From a virus: DNA of 26,207 nt. The notes under the pieces are model-generated. The model did not search any database, was not told the DNA's origin, and saw nothing but the letters and a program-made list of their open reading frames with translations. The DNA lies in the IMG/VR virus record IMGVR_UViG_3300044641_006998, positions 1-26,207 of that record; one strand, 5' to 3'. Shown here one piece after another: positions 2,611 through 20,582 of this stretch (within the stretch, counting starts at the first letter, position 1; each line of letters begins with the position of its first letter). Made by a program: the position numbers and the translations under genes.

Positions 2611-4086
2611 ATGGTCCGCAACTTTTTGCAACGCATCAAAGCCAGTCTTGGGTTTGCCACTGGCGGGCCTAACCAACTGCGGCTGGCAAACGGCGGGTAC
2701 TGGGCGCAGAGGCCCCTGCTAGGCAACTACGCGCAACCGCTCGACAAAAATATCGACGTGAGCGAGTGGCGGACGATCGTCAACGCGTCTCAGAAACTGT
2801 TCTGGAATTTTGGGCCCGCGCAGGGTGCCCTGCAGGAGAAAAGCACGTACGTGGTCGGGCGCTCCTGGCTGCCGCGGTTTGAGGGCGAGGACAAAGAGTG
2901 GGGCCGCGCGGCGACTGACTGGCTCGTGTCGCAGTTTTACGGAGTGTCGCATGTTAACGGGATGGATTTCCAGACGGCGCTTTACCTCGACAGTCTTTCG
3001 GTAGACCGCGACGGGGATGTCTTTTGTTTGTACACTGAAGCGCGCGACGGGTACCCGCAGTTCCAACAAATCCCTTGGCACGCGATTGGCAGCCGCGACA
3101 ACAAACCAACGGTGGAAGCCGGGGCATTTCGCGGGTACCGGCAGCACAACGGGGTCATCGTTAACGAGTACGGGCGGCCTATTGGGTTTCGCGTGTTGGG
3201 GCGCACGCCGGAAGAAGACCGGGACATTAGCGCACGCAACATGGATTTCCTCCGCGAGCCGGTGGCCCCGGACCAGACGCGAGGGCTGCCTGCGTTTACG
3301 AGCGCAATCCTCGATTTGCGCGACCTGATGACAATGCAGGATTACGTGCGCCAAGCCGCAAAACTGGCAGCGGCGATTGGATTGATCGAACACAACGAAC
3401 TCGGCGTTGCGGATATGTCGGATCCGGTGATGCAGTTGCAACGGCCGGGCCCGACGCAGCAGGGGCTGGTCGGCGAAGAAATCTTCGGCGGCACCGTGCG
3501 CTATTTCCGCGCCAACAGCGGCGCAAAACTGGAACAGTTGAAGAGCGAAGTGCCAAGCGAAGCAACAAACAGCTTGATGGAGCGACTTCTACGCAACGCC
3601 CTGCACGGTGCCGGGCTTCCGTATGAGTTTTTTTGGGACGCGTCAAAACTTGGGGGCGCCAGCGTCCGCGCAATGGTGGCAAAAGTAAACCGCACCGTGC
3701 AGGACCGGCAGGACCTTTTGCGCCCCGCCGCGCGCCGGCGTGTCGGCTACGCGGTCAGCAAAGCGATCAAGCTGGGCATACTGCCTCCCTACCGCGGCGC
3801 GGACCTAGGCGGAAGCCTCAAGTGGGGCTTTACCACGCCCCCAACGGTTACCGTCGACGCAGGCTATGCCAACGCCGATGCCCGGGAGGCGTACAAACTG
3901 GGCATGCGCACACTCACCGAGATTTTGGCCGAGGGCGGCCGCACGCTGACCGACCATTTGGACGAACGTGAGCGCGAAGAAATCGAAATCCGCACACGCA
4001 TGGAACGCAGCGGGCTGCCGGAATCGGCGTTTCGCGTGATTCCCGGCGTGCAGCCCGCCCCAGTTCAAATCGATCCAGCATTATGA
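2611..4086 (+). CDS. Portal protein, lambda gpB family
   Basis: A 491-residue portal of the lambda gpB (Phage_portal_2) type, forming the dodecameric ring at the head vertex through which DNA enters and leaves. Recognisable features are the early aromatic/Asn-rich region with RTIVNASQKLFWNFGPAQGA, the central block with DLRDLMTMQDYVRQAAKLAA, and the late KVNRTVQDRQDLL segment. All have the usual spacing, and the length suits the family. The C-terminus is proline-rich (GVQPAPVQIDP). The gene starts one base after the gpW-like gene and overlaps the protease start by four bases (ATGA), so it belongs to the packaging/head operon. Confidence 0.9.
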   Translation: MVRNFLQRIKASLGFATGGPNQLRLANGGYWAQRPLLGNYAQPLDKNIDVSEWRTIVNASQKLFWNFGPAQGALQEKSTYVVGRSWLPRFEGEDKEWGRAATDWLVSQFYGVSHVNGMDFQTALYLDSLSVDRDGDVFCLYTEARDGYPQFQQIPWHAIGSRDNKPTVEAGAFRGYRQHNGVIVNEYGRPIGFRVLGRTPEEDRDISARNMDFLREPVAPDQTRGLPAFTSAILDLRDLMTMQDYVRQAAKLAAAIGLIEHNELGVADMSDPVMQLQRPGPTQQGLVGEEIFGGTVRYFRANSGAKLEQLKSEVPSEATNSLMERLLRNALHGAGLPYEFFWDASKLGGASVRAMVAKVNRTVQDRQDLLRPAARRRVGYAVSKAIKLGILPPYRGADLGGSLKWGFTTPPTVTVDAGYANADAREAYKLGMRTLTEILAEGGRTLTDHLDEREREEIEIRTRMERSGLPESAFRVIPGVQPAPVQIDPAL

Positions 4087-5306: not shown

Positions 5307-5326
5307 CACCCAACTAACCAAACCCC

Positions 5327-6211
5327 ATGGCCACCAATACCATCGCCGGAGTCAACCTCGCGGCTATTGCTCAAGAAAGCCTCCCATACGCGGCGTCCGT
5401 GTTTGCTCCGCTCGGCGCGTTCACGACAGATTTTTCGGCAGATATCGCTGCAAACGGCGCTTCCGTTACAACCCGTATTCCCACTCGCCCCACCGCGGTT
5501 GACCTGTCTAGCGGGTACACGCAACAAGACACGGCGATGACGGCGAAGACCATCACGCTCAACCAGTTCCCGGGTTTTGTGTGGGGCTTTAACGACCTTG
5601 AGCGCAGCAAAAGCGCGATCAACCTTAACGACTTGTTCATCCGCCCCGCGCTGGAAGCCGTTGGGCAAGCGGTATTTGACTACATCTGGAACCTCGTCGT
5701 TGTTGGAAACTTTGCCACGTCAACAACGATTACAGCGGCTAACTTCGATCGCGATGACCTCGCCGATATCGCCGCCACGTTGACCGCCACTAAAAAAGCG
5801 CCCAAATCCGGCCGCAGTTTGTTGGTCAACCCAACTTACTACGCGTCGCTGGTCAAAACGTTGAACAGCGCAGAAATCCCCGGCATCACGGCCCAAAAAA
5901 CCGAGGGAGTTGTCCCTCGCGTTGCCGGGTTTGACGTGTATGAGACGGACCTTGCCGACGCGAACGCCGCTAATTTACAGGGGTTTGCGGCGCACAAGTC
6001 TTCTCTGATTGTTGCGGCGCGCAGCGTCGACAGCACCGGGTTTGCCGAGTCCGGCGGTGAGATTGCCGACGTAGTTGTTCCCGGCCTTAATCTGCCGCTC
6101 CAGTGGCGCCGTTGGTACAACCAGGACGAGGGCGTTTTAAAGTACTCCCTTAGCGTCCTTTACGGAGCGTCCGCTGGCACTGACACCGGCGTCCGCATCG
6201 TCAGCGCCTAG
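5327..6211 (+). CDS. Major capsid protein
   Basis: A 294-residue protein in the invariant coat position after the protease and coiled-coil genes, with the composition of an HK97-fold coat protein: Ala/Thr-rich, a basic loop with TTRIPTRPTAVDLSSGY, a long spine-type helix around INLNDLFIRPALEAVGQAVF, and beta strands of the P-domain type at VAGFDVYETD and DVVVPGLNLPLQWRRW. It should form the icosahedral shell. No obvious propeptide delta domain is seen; the coding part begins almost directly with the coat. There is no Shine-Dalgarno before ATG 5327, which is odd for a highly expressed gene. A strong terminator follows its stop codon. Confidence 0.85.
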   Translation: MATNTIAGVNLAAIAQESLPYAASVFAPLGAFTTDFSADIAANGASVTTRIPTRPTAVDLSSGYTQQDTAMTAKTITLNQFPGFVWGFNDLERSKSAINLNDLFIRPALEAVGQAVFDYIWNLVVVGNFATSTTITAANFDRDDLADIAATLTATKKAPKSGRSLLVNPTYYASLVKTLNSAEIPGITAQKTEGVVPRVAGFDVYETDLADANAANLQGFAAHKSSLIVAARSVDSTGFAESGGEIADVVVPGLNLPLQWRRWYNQDEGVLKYSLSVLYGASAGTDTGVRIVSA

Positions 6212-6307: not shown

Positions 6308-6526
6308 ATGACGAAACTTGCAATCGTAACGCACCGGACGGGCCTGCGGCCTGATGTTGTTTTCCACGGTCCGCCAGATGAAGCCGTGCGCTTTTACAAA
6401 GACTTTTCAACGCCCGGCGAAGTGTGTCTGTTTGTCTGCCGCAGCGCAGAGCGGACAAAAAAGCTGAAAGCTGCGGCACCAGACGCAGAAGCAACAGCGC
6501 CTCGGGCGCGCAAACGAGTGTTGTAA
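6308..6526 (+). CDS. Small protein after capsid, FI-like position
   Basis: A 72-residue protein beginning at ATG 6308. The frame is open further upstream to 6212, but that stretch contains the terminator, so the longer reading is rejected. The N-terminal half has short beta-like segments (LAIVTHRTGLRPDVVFHG and GEVCLFVCR, with two cysteines), and the C-terminus is basic and Ala/Pro-rich. Its stop overlaps the next ATG (TAATG), so translation is coupled. The location between coat and head-closure genes matches lambda FI. No family is recognised and the function is unassigned. Confidence 0.6.
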   Translation: MTKLAIVTHRTGLRPDVVFHGPPDEAVRFYKDFSTPGEVCLFVCRSAERTKKLKAAAPDAEATAPRARKRVL

Positions 6527-6825
6527 TGGGATTCCACGAAATCAACGCCCGCGCTGTGACGGACGCAATCGCCTACATGGGCCAATCGTTCACATTTCGC
6601 GGCACCGTTTATCGTGCGATCATCAACGAATTGGAAACGGACCCGGACCTCGACATCGGCGGCAACCGAGCCAACTACGTGATGGCGGTTTACGTCCGCA
6701 AAACGGGGTTTCCAGCGCCAGCCGTTGGCGAGCTGGTGACGGTTAACGGCACCGCGCTACGCATCGCGACGATCCAGTCGGACGTGATTTCCTACACGCT
6801 CAACCTGGAGCACCCAACGCAATGA
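6526..6825 (+). CDS. Head-tail connector, gpFII-like
   Basis: A 99-residue protein starting at ATG 6526 inside the TAATG junction with the preceding gene. The body looks like a small beta barrel: FRGTVYRAIINE, YVMAVYVRKTGF, then a VGELVTVNGTALRIATIQ segment typical of head-closure proteins of the gpFII type, which seal the portal/gpW neck and receive the tail. It ends in a four-base overlap with the next gene. The assignment rests on the VNG turn motif, size and place in the gene order. Confidence 0.6.
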   Translation: MGFHEINARAVTDAIAYMGQSFTFRGTVYRAIINELETDPDLDIGGNRANYVMAVYVRKTGFPAPAVGELVTVNGTALRIATIQSDVISYTLNLEHPTQ

Positions 6826-7202
6826 TCGATCAGTTTTTAGTGACGGCAATCGGCGACGCGTTGGCCACCGAGTTTCCGGCAATGTACATCGGCCGACAGC
6901 ACACGGCCGATGAAATGCAGTTGCCGGCAATACTGCTAAAAATTGAAGCCGAGAGCGTGCTTGGCAGCCCGTTGTACCGGGGGACACTCGAGGTTGCGCT
7001 AGTTGCCGCCAGCAGCGACACAACGACCGCGCAGCAAGCTGTATGGGCGCAAGAGATCGACACGGTGATTCGCGAGCTGGAAATCTCAACGGATACGGTT
7101 GCGCTTTTTGGCGTTGTCGCGACCAGCACGCAGCCAAGCGTCAACAACAACCAATTTGTCACGACGATGAACTACACCGTCGGCTTCGGGCCGCCGGCTT
7201 GA
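6822..7202 (+). CDS. Tail terminator candidate, gpU-like
   Basis: A 126-residue protein coupled to the upstream gene by ATGA. The pattern of an N-terminal helix (IDQFLVTAIGDALATEF), central beta strands (LPAILLKIEAES, GTLEVALVAAS), a second helix (AVWAQEIDTVIRELEIS) and a C-terminal strand (QFVTTMNYTVGF) is that of gpU-type tail terminator proteins. These form a hexamer that caps the completed tail tube before joining to the head. The place between head closure and tail tube genes agrees. No single diagnostic residue motif can be cited, so confidence is moderate. Confidence 0.6.
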   Translation: MIDQFLVTAIGDALATEFPAMYIGRQHTADEMQLPAILLKIEAESVLGSPLYRGTLEVALVAASSDTTTAQQAVWAQEIDTVIRELEISTDTVALFGVVATSTQPSVNNNQFVTTMNYTVGFGPPA

Positions 7203-7219: not shown

Positions 7220-7528
7220 ATGCCCGCATCATTTGGAGTAACCGACACTTTTAGCGGCACGGCCCCATCCGGTGGCTGGATGCAGGAATCTTCCGAGGAA
7301 CAAAGCGTCGAAGTCGCGACGATTAAAAACGAGGTCGGAGCAACTGTTGTTGCACAGCCGAAAGGCGTGGTGACCACGCGTGTCACAATCCGCAGCAAGG
7401 GCGATGTTTCTATCGGATCGACGCCGAGCATCGGCTCTTTTTCCGGGTTCAAGGTGACCAGCGCAAAAATTTCCGAATCAAACGACGATTTCCGAACCGC
7501 GGAAATTACCGCGACCAAGTACGAATAA
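7220..7528 (+). CDS. Small tail protein, tube-like, paralogue 1
   Basis: A 102-residue all-beta-looking protein starting at ATG 7220 (an upstream extension of the frame overlaps the gpU-like gene and is rejected). It aligns over its whole length with the next gene: a shared FG(V/I) start, an acidic ESSEEQSVEV / YESEEK segment, a (T/F)T(I/V)R strand, an (F)K(V/I) strand with VTSAK / ITSVK, and the NDDF motif near the C-terminus. Its position after the terminator gene and before the chaperones suits a tail tube subunit or tube-associated protein. It is short for a classical gpV-type tube protein, so the role is inferred. Confidence 0.5.
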   Translation: MPASFGVTDTFSGTAPSGGWMQESSEEQSVEVATIKNEVGATVVAQPKGVVTTRVTIRSKGDVSIGSTPSIGSFSGFKVTSAKISESNDDFRTAEITATKYE

Positions 7529-7541
7529 AGAGGACCACATC

Positions 7542-7856
7542 ATGCCAAGCGCAAACGGTTTTGGAATCTCAGCCCTAACGGGGACGCTTATTGAGTCCGT
7601 TGAAATTTCGTACGAGTCGGAAGAAAAGATGCTCATGGACCGACTCGGCGAATTTAGCGAGGCGCGGTTGATCGACACAACAACGACATTTACCGTGCGC
7701 GGTTCCGGAGAACCTACCGTCACCATTGGCGGCACATCCGGCGCCCCGACTGGAGCTGACGGAAAAATCGTTATCACCAGCGTAAAAAGAACGCAGGTAA
7801 ATGACGACTTTGAAAAGTTCGAGTACTCCGGCACCGCATACCCGAGCGCAGACTAA
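7542..7856 (+). CDS. Small tail protein, tube-like, paralogue 2
   Basis: A 104-residue homologue of the preceding product, sharing the VNDDF/SNDDF motif, the FTVR/VTIR strand and the same overall layout, with a Gly-rich turn GGTSGAPTGADGK that the first copy carries in a different form. An AGAGGA Shine-Dalgarno about eight bases before ATG 7542 is one of the better ribosome sites in the structural region, which suggests strong expression. Two adjacent similar genes suggest an ancient tandem duplication, with the products forming either alternating rings or two different tail parts. Which is the major tube subunit cannot be told. Confidence 0.5.
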   Translation: MPSANGFGISALTGTLIESVEISYESEEKMLMDRLGEFSEARLIDTTTTFTVRGSGEPTVTIGGTSGAPTGADGKIVITSVKRTQVNDDFEKFEYSGTAYPSAD

Positions 7857-7895: not shown

Positions 7896-8348
7896 ATGAG
7901 ACCAGGGCAAACAATTGAGTTTTTGCGCGACAACGAAAACCCGTTGCAGTCGCGCAACACACGCACCGTAGCCGCGGCCATTAGCTGCGGCTGTAAACCG
8001 GCGGAAAAGGCCTACAGCTACACCGTCGAAGAAACGAGAAACGGGCTGCAACGCACCGTCACGTGGGTCATGGATGGCGACGCCAAAGCTGTTTTTGAAC
8101 CGGCGTTTGAACGCGAGGAACTGACTTTTTCCGAGGTGGCAAAACGCTTTGCCGACAAGGCCTGGTGCGAAGCAAACGCCAACCATCCGATCGCCTACCT
8201 GCGCGCGTTTTCGGACAATCTGGCGCAATTGACCGCGTTTGTGAAGGAGCATAAACCGAGCGTGCTTATCCGCCGCGGAAACCGAGTGGCGACAATTGCG
8301 GCAAACGCGAGCGATGAAATGAAGGCAAAGATCTTGGCGATGCTATGA
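7896..8348 (+). CDS. Unknown protein before tail chaperone
   Basis: A 150-residue protein of no recognised family. It has a polar N-terminal part with a CGC pair (residues about 31-33), a central YTVEETRNGLQRTVTWVMDG beta hairpin that may bind a partner, and a helical C-terminal half (ELTFSEVAKRFADKAWCE and onwards). It is linked by a four-base overlap to the chaperone gene, so it may act with it, or be a minor tail component. ATG 7896 lacks a Shine-Dalgarno; 39 bases separate it from the preceding gene and hold only a very short GC palindrome. Confidence 0.5.
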   Translation: MRPGQTIEFLRDNENPLQSRNTRTVAAAISCGCKPAEKAYSYTVEETRNGLQRTVTWVMDGDAKAVFEPAFEREELTFSEVAKRFADKAWCEANANHPIAYLRAFSDNLAQLTAFVKEHKPSVLIRRGNRVATIAANASDEMKAKILAML

Positions 8349-8734
8349 GCACCGACGACGCATTTTTTGACGGGCCGGTGGATGTTGGAAATTTGAAGCT
8401 GCGGCCGTTTTCTATCGGCAGCATGACTGCATGCCGCAAGCTGGGACTAAGCCTGTTCCTCGGGCACGGAGACGCGTTAACAGCCGAGGAAATGCAGCGC
8501 CAAGTGGTGGCGTTTGCTTGGGTCCAGAGCGCCCCACTAGCAACCGTCCAACGTGCCCTTCGCGAGGGCACCGCCGATGAATACATCGCGCGGTTTGAAT
8601 TCGAGGTGATGCCGAGCGACTTGAAAGCGTTGGAGCGGGAAATCAATCGCATTTCCCAACTGACCGAAGCCGCGGCCATCGACACCGTTTCACGTGAAAC
8701 AACCCCAGACCCTGCGGAACCGGGGGAATCTTAG
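8345..8734 (+). CDS. Tail assembly chaperone, gpG-like
   Basis: A 129-residue protein with the N-terminal pattern of phage tail assembly chaperones: a short beta strand NLKLRPFSIGSM, then helices beginning TACRKLGLSLFL, and an acidic C-terminus rich in Glu, Pro and Thr. Such proteins coat the tape measure before tube polymerisation. Position before the tape measure supports this. Its last codons run through CCG GGG GAA TCT TAG, where a -1 slip would enter the open frame of the next small gene, as in lambda G/GT. Start ATG 8345 overlaps the previous stop by ATGA. Confidence 0.65.
   Translation: MSTDDAFFDGPVDVGNLKLRPFSIGSMTACRKLGLSLFLGHGDALTAEEMQRQVVAFAWVQSAPLATVQRALREGTADEYIARFEFEVMPSDLKALEREINRISQLTEAAAIDTVSRETTPDPAEPGES
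8722..8728 (+). other. Candidate -1 frameshift site
   Basis: The run GGGGGAA lies two codons before the TAG at 8732-8734. The zero frame reads GGG GAA. A -1 shift re-pairs GGG perfectly in the P site and reads GGA next, entering a frame that is open from 8698 to 8958 and contains the following small protein. The A-site pairing is imperfect, so this is a weaker heptamer than the lambda G GGA AAG. Conservation of the arrangement is inferred from lambda-like phages. Confidence 0.35.
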
Positions 8735-8958: not shown

Positions 8959-9671
8959 GCGAAACCGTGAGCTTTAAAATGGATACGCGCATGATGTGGC
9001 GTGCCATTGACGAGCATCACCGCACTTTTCGCCGCTCGTATGAACACCTTTTTATGGTCGCGGCAAAAGGTGTTGCTGCAAAAGCTGTGCGACTGACCCC
9101 GCCTTTCAAATGGCAGCGCAACAGTGGAAACACTGAATCAGACAGAAACGCTCGCCAGCGAGGCATCAGCAGCGTTGAAGTGGGTATTTTGAAGCTGTTT
9201 ACAACAGACGCTTCAGTTGCTCTAGAAAACGGTTTGGCGCAGAAACCGACAAAAACGAACATCCAAGCGAACTCTGCGATGTCGTTAATGGCGTCGTACC
9301 ACAAAGAAAAACGCAACCCTTCCGGGCGTGTTCCGAAGTCGCACAAGCCGACAAAAGTCGTGACGCGGCAGGCGTTGAAAAAATACCTGTCGACTACAAA
9401 AAAACGCGTGGGCTACTTAGCTAGCGGCTGGGTCCAAGGCGCGCAGACCGTGCAGGCATCTGTGCCGTCGTGGGTCAAAAAACATGCGGGGCCCGGAAGC
9501 GCAGTTTTGCAGGTTACGGCAACCCGGCTTTATTTTCGGATGACGAATGCCGTCGGGTTTCCGACCAAAGACATGTTGATGGCAAGCCGAATCCCTGTCG
9601 CCGTGCGGCTTCAATCGGCAGCAATGCTGCGGCAGATAGTTTTTAAGACCAAGAAAAAGGTGGCCCTATGA
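8955..9671 (+). CDS. Basic minor tail or neck protein, unknown
   Basis: A 238-residue, strongly basic protein with no certain family. Parts resemble minor tail/tail-completion proteins of the gpZ or HK97 gp10 type: an N-terminal helix with HRTFRRSYEHLFMVAAKG, then VRLTPPFKW where such proteins have a TP motif, and a GYLASGWVQGAQ segment like their substrate-facing helices. The C-terminus is a basic tail (FKTKKKVAL). A GAGGGAGA Shine-Dalgarno lies just upstream of ATG 8955. The position directly before the tape measure is unusual for gpZ-like proteins, so it could instead be a tape-measure partner. Confidence 0.5.
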   Translation: MSETVSFKMDTRMMWRAIDEHHRTFRRSYEHLFMVAAKGVAAKAVRLTPPFKWQRNSGNTESDRNARQRGISSVEVGILKLFTTDASVALENGLAQKPTKTNIQANSAMSLMASYHKEKRNPSGRVPKSHKPTKVVTRQALKKYLSTTKKRVGYLASGWVQGAQTVQASVPSWVKKHAGPGSAVLQVTATRLYFRMTNAVGFPTKDMLMASRIPVAVRLQSAAMLRQIVFKTKKKVAL

Positions 9672-11293
9672 GCGCAACAGCAGTTCTCGATTTAAAAGTC
9701 GGCGGGTTTACCGCGGGGTTAAGTGCGGTCAATAAAGGCCTGAAAGCAATTGGTTCAACCGCGGCACAAACGGGCAGCCTAATGGGTTCCGCGCTAAGTA
9801 AAGGCATCAGCGGTATCACTGGGCTTGTCAAAGGGCTGTCGGTCGCCGGCGTTGGCGCGTTTGCCGGGCTCGGTGCGGGAATCTACGAGGCCATGAACCA
9901 GGGCGGCGAACTGGTCGACTTGCAGGAGCAGACGGGCGTGAGCATTGAAAAACTGATGCAGTTGCGCGTCGCATTTGAGCAGGCCGGGCTTGGTGCAGAT
10001 GAGGTGCAACCGACGATTGCCAAGTTGCAAAAAGCCATCGTGGGCGCGCAAACCGGCAGCGAGGCGGCGCAAAAAGCTTTTGAGGCGTTGGGGCTGTCTG
10101 CGGATAATTTGGCGGAAACAACCGCAGACGAACAACTGCGGCTTGTCGGCGAGAGCATTGCCAACATCGAAAACCCGGCGCTTAAATCTGCGGTGGCGAT
10201 GGAAGTGTTCGGAAAAAGCGGCGGGCGGATGCTTGCGTTTTTTGCGGCCGGCGGACTCGATGAAGCTGCGGCAGCTATTGGCCGGCAGAGCGAACTAATG
10301 GCCAAGTATGCGGACACGTTCGACTCGATCACTGATTTGTTTGGGCTTTATCACACAAAACTGCGCGGGTTTTTTGTCGGGATGGCCGCAGAACTGGCGC
10401 CAATTTTGAAAATGGCGGCGGATTGGTTTAAGACTCTGGATATCACCGCGATTGGCGAAAGTGTTGGAAACGTAATTGCGTCGATTTACGGCACGATTGA
10501 AAAGGGCAATCTAAGCGAGTTGATTGGCACGGCTCTAAAAATTGGGTTTGGCGACGGGATCAACTATTTTTGGGCCGGAGTAAAAGCCGTCGGAGCTGCA
10601 ATTGCGGAACTGTTTCGCGGGTCCTTTGGAGGCATCACAGACTATTTTAAAGGATTTGGCACTGTGTTGTTGGGAATTGGTAAACAGTTTGCTGCGTTAA
10701 TTTTAGACGGAATCGGAACGATGCTTGTCAAACTGCGCGATTTGCCAGTGATCGGCGAAAAATTAGTGCAAGCCGGTTCTGAATTGCAGTCGTCTGCGTT
10801 TCGAATGGGCGCAACCGGCAATTTAGACATGGTCAAAGGTGCAGATGAAATGACCGCTGCGTTACCAACGCTTGACCAAGCCGGACAACGACTTGTTGCT
10901 AGTGGAAAAGCGTTCGCTGCGGAGTTTAAAAAAGCAGGGCAAACGCAAGTTGTTGACGTTGCTGCAGAAAAAGAACGTTTTAAAGAATTGATGACCGAAG
11001 GGCGCGCGGAAGCTGCAAAAATGCAACTTGAACTTGGCGCGAAAAAACGCGAAGCCGAACCGCCTAAATTGGAACGCGACATCCTTGACGTTCTTGGCAA
11101 AAAAGAAGCTCCATCCCGTGCGTCGCAGGTGTTCGGAATGTTCGGCAGCGTCGGCGGCGGCACTGTGCGTGGGTCGTTTCAGTCGCTCGATCCGATGGTA
11201 GCGCAGCAGAAGTTCACAAACGCCCTGCTGAAGCAAGTCGTTGATAATACGAACAAAGCAGCAACCATTGCCGCCCCGGCTTACCAAAAATAA
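9668..11293 (+). CDS. Tape measure protein
   Basis: A 541-residue protein with typical tape-measure composition: a Gly/Ala/Ser-rich hydrophobic N-terminal part with GISGITGLVKGLSVAGVGAF, long Ala-rich helices at about 90-220 (AQTGSEAAQKAFEALGLSAD), further hydrophobic segments in the middle (FGDGINYFWAGVKAVGAAIA) and a charged helical C-terminal third. It sets tail length and is ejected or threaded during infection. At the usual 0.15 nm per residue of an extended helix it would predict a tail of about 80 nm. It overlaps the preceding gene by ATGA, after an AAGGTGG. No peptidase or lysozyme domain is recognised in it. Confidence 0.82.
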   Translation: MSATAVLDLKVGGFTAGLSAVNKGLKAIGSTAAQTGSLMGSALSKGISGITGLVKGLSVAGVGAFAGLGAGIYEAMNQGGELVDLQEQTGVSIEKLMQLRVAFEQAGLGADEVQPTIAKLQKAIVGAQTGSEAAQKAFEALGLSADNLAETTADEQLRLVGESIANIENPALKSAVAMEVFGKSGGRMLAFFAAGGLDEAAAAIGRQSELMAKYADTFDSITDLFGLYHTKLRGFFVGMAAELAPILKMAADWFKTLDITAIGESVGNVIASIYGTIEKGNLSELIGTALKIGFGDGINYFWAGVKAVGAAIAELFRGSFGGITDYFKGFGTVLLGIGKQFAALILDGIGTMLVKLRDLPVIGEKLVQAGSELQSSAFRMGATGNLDMVKGADEMTAALPTLDQAGQRLVASGKAFAAEFKKAGQTQVVDVAAEKERFKELMTEGRAEAAKMQLELGAKKREAEPPKLERDILDVLGKKEAPSRASQVFGMFGSVGGGTVRGSFQSLDPMVAQQKFTNALLKQVVDNTNKAATIAAPAYQK

Positions 11294-14517: not shown

Positions 14518-14850
14518 ATGGCCGCAGGAATCTACAACTTTTCGATTGAAGAGGGGGCCGATTTTTCCATTGGGGTCCGCGTAAAAATCAACAACGAGAT
14601 GCAGGCTTTGGCGGGGTGGCAATTCCACGCGCAATTGCGAACTGCGGTAAACGGCACGCTGTTGGCGACGTTTATTTGCGAGCTTTGCGGCGACGGTGAA
14701 ACGCTTCGGGTCGCACTTGACGCCGCGACAACGGATGAGCTCCTGCCGCAGAGCGCGCGATGGGATTTGCTGGCCGAGTTGCCCGATGGCCGCAAGCTGC
14801 GGCTTCTCGAGGGCAAAGTGACAATCTCTGGAAGCGTGACCGAATTATGA
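14518..14850 (+). CDS. Small beta-sandwich-like fibre-associated protein
   Basis: A 110-residue protein coupled by ATGA to the collagen-like fibre gene. It has the regular strand pattern of the small Ig-like phage proteins found next to fibre genes: [20 protein letters not shown], then [41 protein letters not shown] and a final TISGSV strand. Such proteins often sit at fibre bases or baseplates. ATG 14518 follows an A-rich stretch without a Shine-Dalgarno. It probably forms a complex with, or assembles onto, the fibre. No enzymatic motif is present. Confidence 0.55.
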
Positions 14851-17800
14851 GCTGCCCAACCTCCTGTGAAATTATCGTCTGCGAAATCCTAGCCGGAGCA
14901 CCTGGCGCATTCGGCGGGGCTCAGGGGGCAACCGGGGCCACGGGCCCAATTGGCGCAACGGGCGTTGGAGCAACAGGAGCCACCGGCGAGATTGGCGCGA
15001 CAGGCCCCGCTGGCGCTACGGGGCCCGCTGGAGCAACCGGCGCAGGTGAAACTGGCGCGACAGGTGCAACCGGATCTATTGGAGCCACAGGGCCCGCAGG
15101 CGCTACAGGCGCAGGTGAAACTGGCGCGACTGGCGCAACCGGACTTGTTGGAGCCACAGGGCCCGCAGGCGCTACAGGCGCGACCGGCGCGACGGGATTG
15201 GCTGGAGAGGTCGGGGCAACTGGCATTGCAGGGCCAACAGGCCCAACGGGGGACGCTGGAGCTACCGGGCCCGCTGGGGCCACTGGTGAAGCTGGCATTG
15301 CAGGCGCAACCGGCGAAACCGGGCCTGCAGGAGCCACTGGCGAGGCTGGGGCTGTAGGAGCAACAGGAGCGACAGGTGACGCTGGGCCCGCAGGCGCAAC
15401 GGGCGAAACGGGGTCTGCAGGAGCAACGGGCGAAACCGGGCCTGCTGGCGCGACTGGTCAAACCGGCCCTACAGGCGCGACAGGTGAAGCTGGGCCTGCA
15501 GGCGCAACCGGCGCTGGCGCAACCGGGGCGACGGGCCCCTCTGGGGCTCAGGGGCCGTCGGGAATTAGCTCGACTGACGCTTACTGGGGGTCGTTTTGGA
15601 GCACGGTTGATCAAACGGCCGCGGCGATCAACACGGGGTACCCGATTAGTTACAACAACACGGACCCCGATTCTGCGGGCGTGTCTATTGTGTCGGGTAG
15701 TCGCGTTACGTTTGCTGTCGCTGGCGTTTATTCGATCACTTTCAGCGTTCAGTGGAACAACGCGAGTAACCAAATTCACGACGGCAACATCTGGCTCAGT
15801 AAAAACGGCACAACCGTTCCTGATACCGATTCCCGATGGAGTATTACGGAGAGCCACGGGGGCGCGCCGGGGCGGCAGATTGGCACGGTTAACTACGTTC
15901 TCAAGCTCGCGGCAAACGACTACCTCGAGCTCTATTGGCAGACCACCGACACGGCGGTAACTCTCGAGTACGCACCGGCCTCTGCGCCGGCGCCGGCAAT
16001 TCCGAGCGTGATTTTAACGGCTGCGCAGGTGCTCTACGGGCAACTTGGCCCGAGCGGCGCCACGGGATCCTCCGGGGCTCAAGGCGCAAGCGGCGCTACA
16101 GGTCCGTCTGGGGTTCAAGGGGCGACTGGAGAGGCGGGACCGCAGGGACCAAGCGGCGCCACGGGCGCAACAGGCGCGCAGGGCGATCAAGGACCATCGG
16201 GAGCGGAAGGACCAACAGGCGCGACTGGATCAGCGGGAATTGAAGGCCCAACGGGAGCCACGGGATTGGAAGGGCCTACAGGCGCAACAGGCGTTGAAGG
16301 CCCAACAGGCGCAACAGGCGTCGAAGGTCCCACGGGAGCGACAGGCGTTGAGGGTGCAACTGGACCGTCTGGAGCCGAGGGCCCAACGGGCGCAACAGGC
16401 GTTGAAGGGCCAACTGGCGCGACGGGCGTTGAGGGTGCAACGGGCCCCTCTGGAGCCGAAGGCCCAACTGGAGCCACGGGCCCGGAAGGATCAAGCGGCG
16501 CGACAGGACCGTCGGGGCTTGAAGGGCCAACGGGGGCAACAGGAACCGAAGGGCCAACAGGGGCAACAGGTGTCGAGGGCGCGACAGGCCCTTCGGGAGC
16601 CGAAGGCCCAACTGGGGCGACAGGAATTGAAGGACCAACAGGGGCAACTGGTGTCGAGGGCTCAAGCGGCGCAACGGGGCCCTCCGGTTTGGAAGGCCCA
16701 ACTGGAGCTACTGGACCGGAAGGTTCAAGTGGCGCGACTGGACCCTCTGGAGCCGAGGGCCCAACTGGGGCGACAGGCGTGCAAGGTTCAACTGGAGCCA
16801 CGGGCCCGGGCGCGGCGGGCATTGGCGTTTTGACCGAGTTTGTCGGCAGCGGGGCAACACAGTTTTCGCCAATTAACGGCTACCTCGGCACCGAAGCGGC
16901 ATCATACTTGGTGACAATTGACGGCACGATCCAACATCCGGGCGCAACGGATGGCGCGTACACGATTACGGCCGCAAACGGCGGGACAATTACTTTTGCA
17001 AGCGCACCTGCCGTCGGGGCGCTTATCACGGTGCGTGTGGTGCGGGGAGAAATAGGAGCCACCGGGGCTCAGGGCGTGCAAGGCCCGAGCGGGGCGCAGG
17101 GCGCGTCGGGGATCCAAGGCGTTTCGGGCGTTCCGGGAGAGGCTGGAGCCGTGGGATCCACCGGAGCCACAGGCCCGTCGGGGGCGCAGGGCGTCCAAGG
17201 CGTTTCGGGCGTCCCGGGAGAAGCGGGAGCCGTTGGGGCCACGGGGGCCACGGGCCCTGCAGGTCCTTCGGGCACACCGTCAACGGTTTCAGGCCCAAGC
17301 GGGCCAGCAGGAGCCGTTGGTGCTACCGGAGCCACGGGTCCGGGGTTAGCGACAACTAGCATCACGGCGGGCACTTATGGCAACAGCTCTTCCGTCGGAG
17401 CTTTTACGGTCAACGAATTTGGTCAGTTGACCGGAGCAACAAACTCTCTAATTTCAATCAGTTCCGCTCAGATTAGCGGGCTGATCGCGACGAGCAAAAT
17501 AAGCGGGCTAGCGGCATCCGCGACCACGGACACAACTAACGCGAGCAACATCACGTCCGGGGCTTTGCCAACCGCGCAGTTGTCTGCAAGCCCGGTGACT
17601 CCCGGGACATACGGCAGCGGCTCGCAAGTCGCAGTGCTGGGCATCGACTCAAAAGGTCGTGTCACAAGCGCGTCCAACGTCGCAATTTCCGCAGCAGCGG
17701 GCGTTTCAACCTTTTCTGCTGGCACGACCGGTCTCACTCCATCGACCGCAACGAGCGGTGCTGTGACACTTGGAGGGACGCTAGGGATTGCGAGCGGCGG

Positions 17801-19163
17801 GACAGGGTCGACAACTGCCGGTGGTGCACTTTCAAACCTTGGAGGGTACCCCTCAAGTAACCCAAGCGGGTACACGTCCAATACCGGCACCGTGACCTCG
17901 GTTTCCGGGACTGGTACCGTGAGCGGGCTGTCGTTGTCCGGCACGGTAACGGGGTCGGGCAACATTACCTTGGGAGGCACGTTGGCTGTCACTGCGTCAA
18001 ATTTTGCAAGCCAGACCGCAAACACCGTCTTGTCTGCGCCCAACGGCACAGCGGGAGTGCCGACGTTTCGAGCGTTGGCCGCTGCGGACATTCCGGTCCT
18101 CAACCAAAACACGACGGGCACCGCGGCAAACGTCACTGGAACCGTTGCAATCGCAAACGGAGGAACCGGCTCAACCACGCAGCAGGCAGCCGTGAACGCT
18201 TTGGCTGGGGCAGTGACCAGCGGGCAATTCCTGCGCGGGAATGGCACCAACGTGGTGATGTCGGCAATTCAAGCGGCGGATGTCCCGACCCTCAACCAAA
18301 GCACCACCGGCACGGCTGCAAACGTCACTGGGACTGTCGCAATTGCAAACGGTGGCACTGGGGCGACCACTGCTGGAGTTGCGCTCTCCAACCTTGGAGC
18401 GTATCCCGCATCCAACCCAAGCGGGTACACGTCCAACACAGGCACCGTAACCTCGGTGTCCGGCACCGGCACTGTGAGCGGGCTGTCGTTGTCTGGCACG
18501 GTGACTGGAAGCGGCAACATCACCCTGGGCGGTACGCTGTCGGTTGCTCCGACAAACTTTGCGAGCCAAACTGCAAACACGATCCTTGCGGCGCCCAACG
18601 GTGCAGCGGGAGTACCAACGTTCCGGGCACTAGCCGCCGCGGACATTCCAACCCTCAACCAAAACACGACGGGCACCGCCGCAAACGTCACTGGCACTGT
18701 AGCAGTTACAAACGGCGGCACAGGAGCCACAACTCTTACCGGCTACGTCAAAGGGACCGGCACGGCGGCGCTCACAGGCTCCGCATCTGTACCGGTCGCA
18801 GACATCTCTGGGACGTTGCCGGTGAGCAAAGGGGGGACTGGGTCGACCGTCGCAAAAAACAGCACTTTCCAGAACATTACCGGTGTTGGAGTCTGGGCAT
18901 CTGGGGACTTTCCACTCGACCCCACAGACACTCTGCTGTGGATCATTGATGCAGCAAATGCTTCATCCATTGTCACATTACCCGATGTGTCCGCAACCAC
19001 TGCTGGACGTCTGTTTATGGTCGCAAACCACAAATCAACGTCTTTAACCGTGCGGCTGTTTGGGACAACAACCACTTATACAACAATCCCCGCTGGGAAA
19101 ATTGGAATTTTCACGTGCAACGGAAGCACAAACACTGCCGCCAGTTGGATGAACAACCTCTAA
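14847..19163 (+). CDS. Collagen-like tail fibre, 1438 residues
   Basis: The largest gene, starting at ATG 14847 in an ATGA junction. Segments in order: a short cysteine-bearing N-terminus; collagen-like Gly-X-Y region 1 (residues about 17-239, dominated by GAT and GPAGATG triplets); a C1q/TNF-like beta domain (about 240-397, with [19 protein letters not shown]); collagen region 2 (about 398-656); a small beta domain (about 657-733, [20 protein letters not shown]); collagen region 3 (about 734-833); a fibre-repeat region with GGTG(S/A)TT modules and two 121-residue repeats; and a C-terminal beta domain (about 1345-1438). It should form a long trimeric adhesion fibre, with host recognition at the C-terminus or the internal beta domains. 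No chaperone-type autoprotease tail is recognised. Confidence 0.85.
16038..16815 (+). repeat. Collagen-like repeat DNA, region 2
   Basis: About 260 codons of near-perfect Gly-X-Y, built from recurring 9- and 18-base units such as those encoding [16 protein letters not shown]. Homologous, slightly diverged units alternate, so the tract is prone to expansion or contraction by recombination or slippage. Similar but less regular tracts lie at about 14895-15565 and 17046-17345. Confidence 0.8.
17796..18158 (+). repeat. Fibre internal repeat, copy A (363 bp)
   Basis: A 121-residue module beginning at GGTGSTT and ending before the next GGTGSTT. It is nearly identical in protein to the copy at 18351-18713 but differs at many third codon positions. 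Both copies are exactly 363 bases. A shorter 192-base related unit lies between them. Confidence 0.85.
18351..18713 (+). repeat. Fibre internal repeat, copy B (363 bp)
   Basis: The second 121-residue module, from GGTGATT. It shares [33 protein letters not shown] and [12 protein letters not shown] with copy A while using different synonymous codons, which indicates an older duplication kept under protein-level constraint. Confidence 0.85.
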
Positions 19164-19601: not shown

Positions 19602-20582
19602 ATGGCGCAACAAATTAGCAAGGTCGGCAGCGACCTGATGAAATTGACCGGGGTGACCCCGGGAACGTACGGATCGAGCGCGCAGATCCCCGCGCTCACG
19701 ATTGATGCGGCGGGGCGCATCACGAGCGCAACGACTCAGCCTGCGTCTGGCGGGAGCGCCACTCCCACAAGTGTGGAGGTCTTCATTTCCAGCGGAATAT
19801 GGACGAAACCGGCTGGAGCAAAAGCAGTTTATGCTATTTGCATTGGTGCGGGTGGTGGAGGTGGATCTGGAAGAAAAAGTGCATCTGGAACCAACGGATT
19901 TGGTGGCGGCGGAGGAGCGGGAGGCGGCTATACACATCGAACCATTCCAGCTTCATCGCTTGGAGTTACTGAGACTGTAACTATTGGAGCTGGAGGAGCA
20001 GGAGGCGCTTCTGTTGTCACTAACTCTACAAATGGTAATGGCGGAGTCGCTGGAGGAAACAGTTCTTTTGGTGCTTGGGTTGTAGCTGGCGGAGGAGGTG
20101 GAGGAGGTGGCGGAAGCACTACTGGAGGAGCAACTGGCACGGTGACAAATCAGCGCGCTCAATTTGTTGCAGGAGCAGGTGGATCAGGAAACACATCCGC
20201 TGGAACTGTTGGAGTTTCTTCTAGCGGCGCTGCTGGCGGCGGTGGTGGTGGCGGAGGATTTTCAGCAACTCCAGCAAACAATGTTGGAGGTGGTGGAGGA
20301 ATAGCACTTGGATCGTTTCTTACAGGCGGAAGTGCTACGGGCGGAAATGGCATTGGGGTTAATGGACAAAATGGAGCTAGTGTTGGCAATAATGTTGGAT
20401 TGCCCGGAGGAGGAGCAGGAGGTGGATATGCTTACTCTCTTGGAAACTCTACCAATGGAGGAAATGGAGGTAATTACGGTGGAGGCGGCGGCGGCGGCGG
20501 CGCTGCGTTGGATACCGTTGGGAACAGTGGGGCTGGAGGAACTGGAGCTAATGGTATAATTATCGTAATTACTTACTTCTAA
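19602..20582 (+). CDS. Glycine-rich receptor-binding adhesin
   Basis: A 326-residue protein. Residues about 18-46 repeat the VTPGTYGS...GRITSAT module found twice in the collagen-like fibre. A short linker and strand VEVFISSGIWTKPAGAKAVY come next, then from about residue 84 a Gly-rich, low-complexity domain with many (G)5-9 runs and GAGGAGG/GGNGG motifs. This fits the Gly-rich tail-protein family and could form polyglycine-II sheets like the tip adhesins of T-even-like phages. The hydrophobic C-terminus IIIVITYF is typical. From about 19800 on, the gene favours GGA codons over the GGC/GGG of its neighbours, a compositional shift that fits acquisition or fast exchange. Confidence 0.7.
   Translation: MAQQISKVGSDLMKLTGVTPGTYGSSAQIPALTIDAAGRITSATTQPASGGSATPTSVEVFISSGIWTKPAGAKAVYAICIGAGGGGGSGRKSASGTNGFGGGGGAGGGYTHRTIPASSLGVTETVTIGAGGAGGASVVTNSTNGNGGVAGGNSSFGAWVVAGGGGGGGGGSTTGGATGTVTNQRAQFVAGAGGSGNTSAGTVGVSSSGAAGGGGGGGGFSATPANNVGGGGGIALGSFLTGGSATGGNGIGVNGQNGASVGNNVGLPGGGAGGGYAYSLGNSTNGGNGGNYGGGGGGGGAALDTVGNSGAGGTGANGIIIVITYF

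Follow-up and report, generated by a model that had tools for sequence, protein, structure and literature searches.

A conserved pair of paralogous, putative tail-tube genes in siphophages that probably infect Verrucomicrobiota

Why would a virus with a siphophage-like tail carry two small and similar genes, side by side, at the place of its tail-tube gene? The question is raised by a 26,207-base virus record (IMGVR_UViG_3300044641_006998), analysed over its whole length and hereafter called the window, which carries a siphophage-like head and tail module with the following features.

515-2323: terminase; resembles phage terminase large subunits
2611-4086: portal; 28% identity to the portal of phage P8625
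4083-4895: ORF in the protease position, assigned by that position
5327-6211, plus strand: major capsid protein; PHROG 283 at E 2.7e-22, and 63% identity to a P8625 protein
6526-6825, plus strand: gene like that for head-tail attachment (gpFII); Pfam PF05354 at E 1.6e-4 and 22.6 bits, under the 26-bit cut-off; the start at 6526 is inferred, within an ORF of 6424-6825
6822-7202, plus strand: 126-aa gene in the terminator position, assigned by position only
7220-7528, plus strand: gene A, 102 aa, putative tail-tube paralog A, from profile homology to B and pairing in related loci
7481-7492, plus strand: NDDF turn in A, residues 88-91
7542-7856, plus strand: gene B, 104 aa, putative tail-tube paralog B and probable bulk tube subunit, from its model and structure matches
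7800-7811, plus strand: NDDF turn in B, residues 87-90
7896-8348, plus strand: 150-aa gene after B, chaperone or other; recognised in 94 of 98 non-redundant loci
8345-8734, plus strand: 129-aa gene, presumed tail assembly chaperone from its position; recognised in 90 of 98 non-redundant loci
9668-11293, plus strand: tape measure protein, 541 aa; PHROG 9483 (tail length tape measure) at E 3.2e-15

The A-B pair thus sits between head-tail joining genes and the chaperone and tape measure genes, which is the position of a tube gene, the chaperone and terminator assignments being positional. Family searches, PHROG and Pfam among them, gave no usable match for the 126-aa gene in the terminator position. 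In the same way, the 150-aa gene had no PHROG or Pfam family match, and the 129-aa gene had weak rows only; a small ORF and then a 238-aa gene separate the latter from the tape measure gene. Lying directly 3' of B, the 150-aa gene may be functionally part of the tube pair. Further downstream, 14760-19163 is a single ORF of 1467 aa in which collagen-like GATG repeats abound and which probably encodes a tail fibre, and a glycine-rich ORF of 326 aa (19602-20582) is found 3' of it.

The first-pass annotation had described two adjacent genes of 102 and 104 codons, paralogous and sharing an NDDF motif and an overall layout, and this description is borne out. Both ORFs start with ATG, have 102 and 104 codons plus a stop, and lie on the same strand with 13 nt between them. 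In a single BLASTP comparison the two proteins were 37% identical over 54 aa (E 1e-5). A profile-profile comparison of 32 A and 33 B proteins, gathered from viral contigs, extended this match to 100 columns with a probability of 98.3% and an E of 2.3e-14. Moreover, in a combined alignment of 35 pairs, G12, G42, G63, N101 and D103 (alignment numbering) were near-invariant in both families, and these columns are scattered along the whole chain. Mean identity was 48% among A proteins and 44% among B proteins; for A against B within a genome it was 27% (35 pairs). It could be argued that two short beta-rich proteins resemble each other by chance or convergence, since the sequences are short and BLASTP alone spans about half of each protein. 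The strength of the profile-profile match and the glycine, asparagine and aspartate columns common to both along their length speak against this explanation, which we consider scarcely credible. Given that match and those columns, A and B are, as judged from their sequences, full-length paralogs, and NDDF, which in both models forms the turn joining the last two predicted strands, is the most visible piece of a wider similarity.

The pair was then followed across 193 related loci (L001-L193), of which both strands were searched with the A and B profiles in frames of at least 50 aa, at E up to 0.1. These loci correspond to about 130 contigs and 98 distinct A-B pairs, many contigs having been fetched more than once; the window itself accounts for L001 and L002. 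The relatives used were the best 80 of 106 for A and the best 80 of 132 for B. Exactly two matching frames were present in 192 of the 193 loci, the remaining one (L096) having a single frame on a contig that ends at the stop of A. Neither a third copy nor a fused A-B frame, that is two strong matches in one frame, was found in the 193 loci; the relatives were found through short motifs common to both families, so that lone or very divergent copies may have escaped. In all 84 loci from L110 to L193, each of the two frames was matched by both profiles. Both genes were called in 186 of 194 loci, the window being counted besides L001 and L002. In L107 and L108 gene B is present but scored below the 80-bit calling threshold, and the six other uncalled loci end within 234 bases of A, five of them still showing a second matching frame. 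Wherever both genes were callable, A lay 5' of B on the same strand (186 of 186), at a distance of 1-15 nt in 185 loci and of 37 nt in one.

A tree was built from 35 pairs, with up to three per cluster. In this unrooted tree a single branch parts the 35 A proteins from the 35 B proteins with a support of 1.0, and such a split of all A from all B places the duplication before the sampled group. One contig of 103,827 bases (IMGVR_UViG_3300042564_006100; L065 and L085) contains two A-B tail modules, separated by about 58 kb, and would represent either two proviruses or a chimeric assembly.

When bacterial genomes were scanned with the A alignment, four contigs with an A-B pair were retrieved, all from metagenome-assembled genomes (MAGs) of Verrucomicrobiota: two from Akkermansiaceae, one from Verrucomicrobiaceae and one unplaced. 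A first scan with the B alignment retrieved no contig from the bacterial genomes. The four contigs may be of phage origin and have been binned with a host. The phages that carry the pair are siphophages that probably infect Verrucomicrobiota. P8625 is the only named phage matched by the capsid and the portal (two records; 63% and 28% identity, respectively) and the nearest relative in culture that was found. It has been described as a lytic siphophage, its tail about 75 nm long, that infects the Puniceicoccales strain IMCC8625, according to the available text (PMC4642752).

The tail genes of P8625 are broadly similarly placed, but a single gene, gp16 (124 aa, weakly similar), occupies the tube position. 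Within the 22 kb searched, both profiles had gp16 as their top match, at the weak E values of 0.019 and 0.16. When gp16 and its relatives were compared by hhalign, the probability was 57% with A and 11% with B, over the last hairpin only. Among 34 gp16 relatives, the A profile matched 8 and the B profile 4 at E 0.05, and loci of the gp16 type had a single copy in 34 of 34 cases. It is therefore plausible, on the basis of this weak similarity, that gp16 represents a single-copy outgroup of the pair.

Neither sequence pointed directly to a function. For A and B of the window, PHROG and Pfam yielded nothing up to E 1, tblastn of each against phage records was likewise empty up to E 1, and sequence searches of the PDB returned weak and unrelated rows only. 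The 32 A and 33 B members gave scattered weak family rows, such as phrog_32965 (virion structural protein) for 3 of 33 B proteins with a best E of 0.026; these were too weak to be used.

Structure prediction was more informative for B. Its model, of moderate confidence (mean pLDDT 78.8), has four long strands. Among the best 50 of 479 Foldseek rows in the PDB, nearly all were entries of phage tails, GTA, type VI secretion or contractile injection systems, with the caveat that row titles often name a whole assembly and not a single protein. The list was led by a GTA particle, the tail tube of siphophage R4C, the neck of phage 812 and the tail of HFTV1 (probability 0.98-1.00, E 0.016-0.085); with the monocin tube added, the range becomes 0.97-1.00 for the probability and 0.016-0.2 for E. 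None of these best 50 rows was under E 0.001. With VIA-align the R4C tube again came first (Z 5.9, 94 residues, rmsd 4.5), every Z being below 6, a range common by the tool's own account, with values up to 4.4 for some unrelated chains; the absence of a family from the VIA lists was not counted as evidence. A predicted structure, A0A6J5LK19, matched the B model at E 1.2e-3 and TM 0.57. The consistency of the lists is a stronger point than any single score, and the B model is predicted to have a tail-tube-like fold, a beta-sandwich with a long beta-hairpin, on a match that is moderate (Foldseek E about 0.02).

The model of A was poor (mean pLDDT 53.3) and its structure matches mixed tubes, terminators and unrelated proteins, with an unrelated protein in the top row. 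For this reason the fold of A would be deduced mainly from its homology to B. By sequence, A0A6J5LK19 was also the best match of A among predicted viral proteins, with 47% identity over the match (E 3.5e-5). Neither model contains a helix of at least 4 residues, at a confidence that is moderate for B and low for A, while known tail tubes are described as carrying a flanking alpha-helix in the accessible part of a review (PMC9022992). In its fold and gene position B resembles the single-gene tubes of R4C, GTA, lambda (gpV) and SPP1 (gp17.1), but these proteins, as far as their descriptions were available, are larger and have the flanking helix that the B model lacks. The two proteins were thus not predicted to have unrelated folds, which would have spoken against the first-pass annotation, and the A model is too poor for a direct confirmation.

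The mixed matches of A bring in another explanation, in which B alone builds the tube and A is a neck, terminator or completion protein, or an assembly factor absent from the virion, on a tube-derived fold. The weak A model does match terminators (lambda gpU, T1 and T5), and A adjoins the gene in the terminator position. However, the profile similarity of A to B covers the whole protein with its hairpin, and a separate gene, identified by position only, already lies in the terminator position. We regard this role for A as unlikely.

If both proteins are tube subunits, how are they arranged? The first-pass annotation had proposed two tube subunits in alternating rings, or else a tube protein and a derived tip or terminator piece. 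In the former case each ring would be a homohexamer of one protein, and the two kinds of ring would follow one another by turns, or in blocks, along the tube. Of this view of the pair, the paralogy and the tube-like fold of the B model are supported, but nothing specifically favours alternating homohexameric rings. The glycine at alignment column 42 is invariant in both families and in the B model forms the turn of the long hairpin, whose loop is the contact between rings in known tubes, as far as these are described in the accessible sources; such an arrangement would nevertheless need an ordering mechanism, and none was seen. We know of no tail tube built of alternating homohexameric rings of two proteins, and we hold this arrangement to be very unlikely.

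A second arrangement is suggested by phages in which tube domains are duplicated. In T5 (pb6) and P74-26, two tube domains in one chain make trimeric, pseudo-hexameric rings, according to the available text of the reports (PMC5717097, PMC10034513) and of a review (PMC9022992). As in these phages, two divergent copies of the tube domain would be present per phage, but A and B are separate ORFs of about 100 aa. They could alternate around each ring and form an unfused A3B3 pseudo-hexamer, a free-standing counterpart of the fused trimeric tube of the T5 type. The two proteins are alike in length and layout, neither has extra domains, and their genes are side by side in the loci examined. Furthermore, T5 and P74-26 indicate that duplicated tube domains can share one ring (PMC5717097, PMC10034513, as far as available), and the 27% mean identity of A and B within a genome exceeds the 16% given for the P74-26 domains in the accessible part of the report (PMC10034513). 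Against the A3B3 ring stand the absence of a fused A-B frame from the 193 loci and the leader structure, with codon use more weakly, which suggest that B is made in excess of A. The A3B3 ring remains a serious if doubtful candidate, and the main rival to the reading favoured below.

The relative amounts of the two proteins were approached through the leaders of their start codons, compared over 98 non-redundant loci in 18 clusters. Leader structure, a weak proxy that is confounded by the upstream coding sequence, was weaker for B than for A in 17 of 18 clusters (Wilcoxon p 1.5e-5). The B leader was also lower in G than that of A in 14 of 18 clusters and equal in one. Over all loci, its G content was 6.6%, as compared with 7.2% for the capsid gene, and folding energies were -2.8 kcal/mol for B, -1.6 for the capsid gene, -9.5 for A and -8.1 for the tape measure gene. 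In the window the difference was small (-5.8 kcal/mol for A and -3.8 for B). Codon use of B was slightly nearer to that of the capsid gene than codon use of A, with small differences (n 63-67): scores were -0.066 for B, -0.094 for A, -0.097 for the 150-aa gene, -0.122 for the gene in the terminator position, -0.138 for the 129-aa gene and -0.181 for the 238-aa gene. Taken together, these values are suggestive and hint that B, like the capsid protein, is made in bulk, and A less so. Shine-Dalgarno energy gave the opposite result, being stronger for A than for B in 77 of 98 pairs, which counts against a scarcer A; it was set aside as a measure of expression, given this result and the fact that the capsid gene of the window has no Shine-Dalgarno site.

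Two further observations were made on leaders. The capsid gene leader (5307-5326 in the window, and its counterparts in related loci) had a cluster-mean G content of 0-14% and little structure in 16 of 18 clusters with the gene found. Together with the missing site in the window, these G-poor and little-structured leaders suggest high-level translation of the capsid gene independent of a Shine-Dalgarno site. In parallel, the last ~25 nt before the ATG of A, from the TGA stop of the gene upstream, are taken up by a small hairpin in L062, L110, L113, L161 and L177. The letters of its stem vary between loci. A weaker hairpin is seen in L165, L168 and L175, and hardly any in L167 and L182 of the same cluster. 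This hairpin could have a limiting or coupling effect on the translation of A.

The reading that we favour, tentatively and at somewhat less than an even chance, is that of two tube-ring subunits, with B making up the bulk of the tube and A a scarcer ring or rings, likely at the head-proximal end. A and B would stem from an ancient duplication of a small siphophage tail-tube protein of about 100 aa, and both very probably form tail-tube rings around the tape measure. B would be synthesised at a high level as the bulk subunit. A, the second ring subunit, would be made in smaller amount and would most likely lie between the terminator and the B tube. The difference in amounts is drawn from the leader data and from the gene order (terminator position, A, B, the 150- and 129-aa genes, tape measure), and the head-proximal placing from the fact that gene A lies between the gene in the terminator position and gene B; this placing depends on the terminator assignment, itself positional only. 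Besides the Shine-Dalgarno energies, a scarcer A ring has against it that an end-ring protein might be expected to have extra parts, and A has none.

Two major tail proteins in one phage have been reported before. In the available text of one report they are described for the Microbacterium phage Damascus, as are several major tail protein genes in cluster EL and in AM, AU, AW, BI, CC and DJ (PMC11080557). In Camille, a Microbacterium phage related to Damascus, gp17, gp19 and gp20 are annotated as major tail proteins and share 42-48% identity. These actinophages resemble the present group in that a single phage has paralogous tube genes near one another, as seen here in their annotation only. 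Unlike A and B, the proteins of the Camille type have 255-410 aa, another gene lies between gp17 and gp19, and their comparison with A and B gave no similarity above chance (best E 0.99 for B and 2.1 for A). SPP1 obtains a second form of its tube protein by a frameshift, according to the available text of a review (PMC9022992); two forms of one gene were ruled out for the pair, A and B being distinct genes with a mean identity of 27% (35 pairs). JBD30 was considered as a case of two major tail proteins and dropped, a single major tail protein gene being found in the material available on it. The accessible part of an Arthrobacter phage paper yielded no case of two tail genes. Finally, in the literature searched, which mostly lies outside subscription journals and was partly accessible, no description was found of a tube built from the products of two small, separate tube genes.

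Neighbouring paralogous tube genes are thus already known in kind from actinophage annotation. The A-B pair represents a distinct family, A and B of the window having no PHROG or Pfam row; its proteins are much smaller than those of the actinophages, and the pair is constant in the loci examined. A likely function can now be assigned to these proteins, which match no PHROG or Pfam family. Up to now, duplicated tube domains have been seen either fused, as in T5 and P74-26, or, by annotation, as larger neighbouring genes in actinophages. Compared with P8625, in which the tube gene is apparently single, the A-B group gives an opening for studying the change from a homohexameric to a two-component tube. 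Should A and B indeed alternate within A3B3 rings, the tube would be a true polymer of two proteins and an extant intermediate between duplication and fusion.
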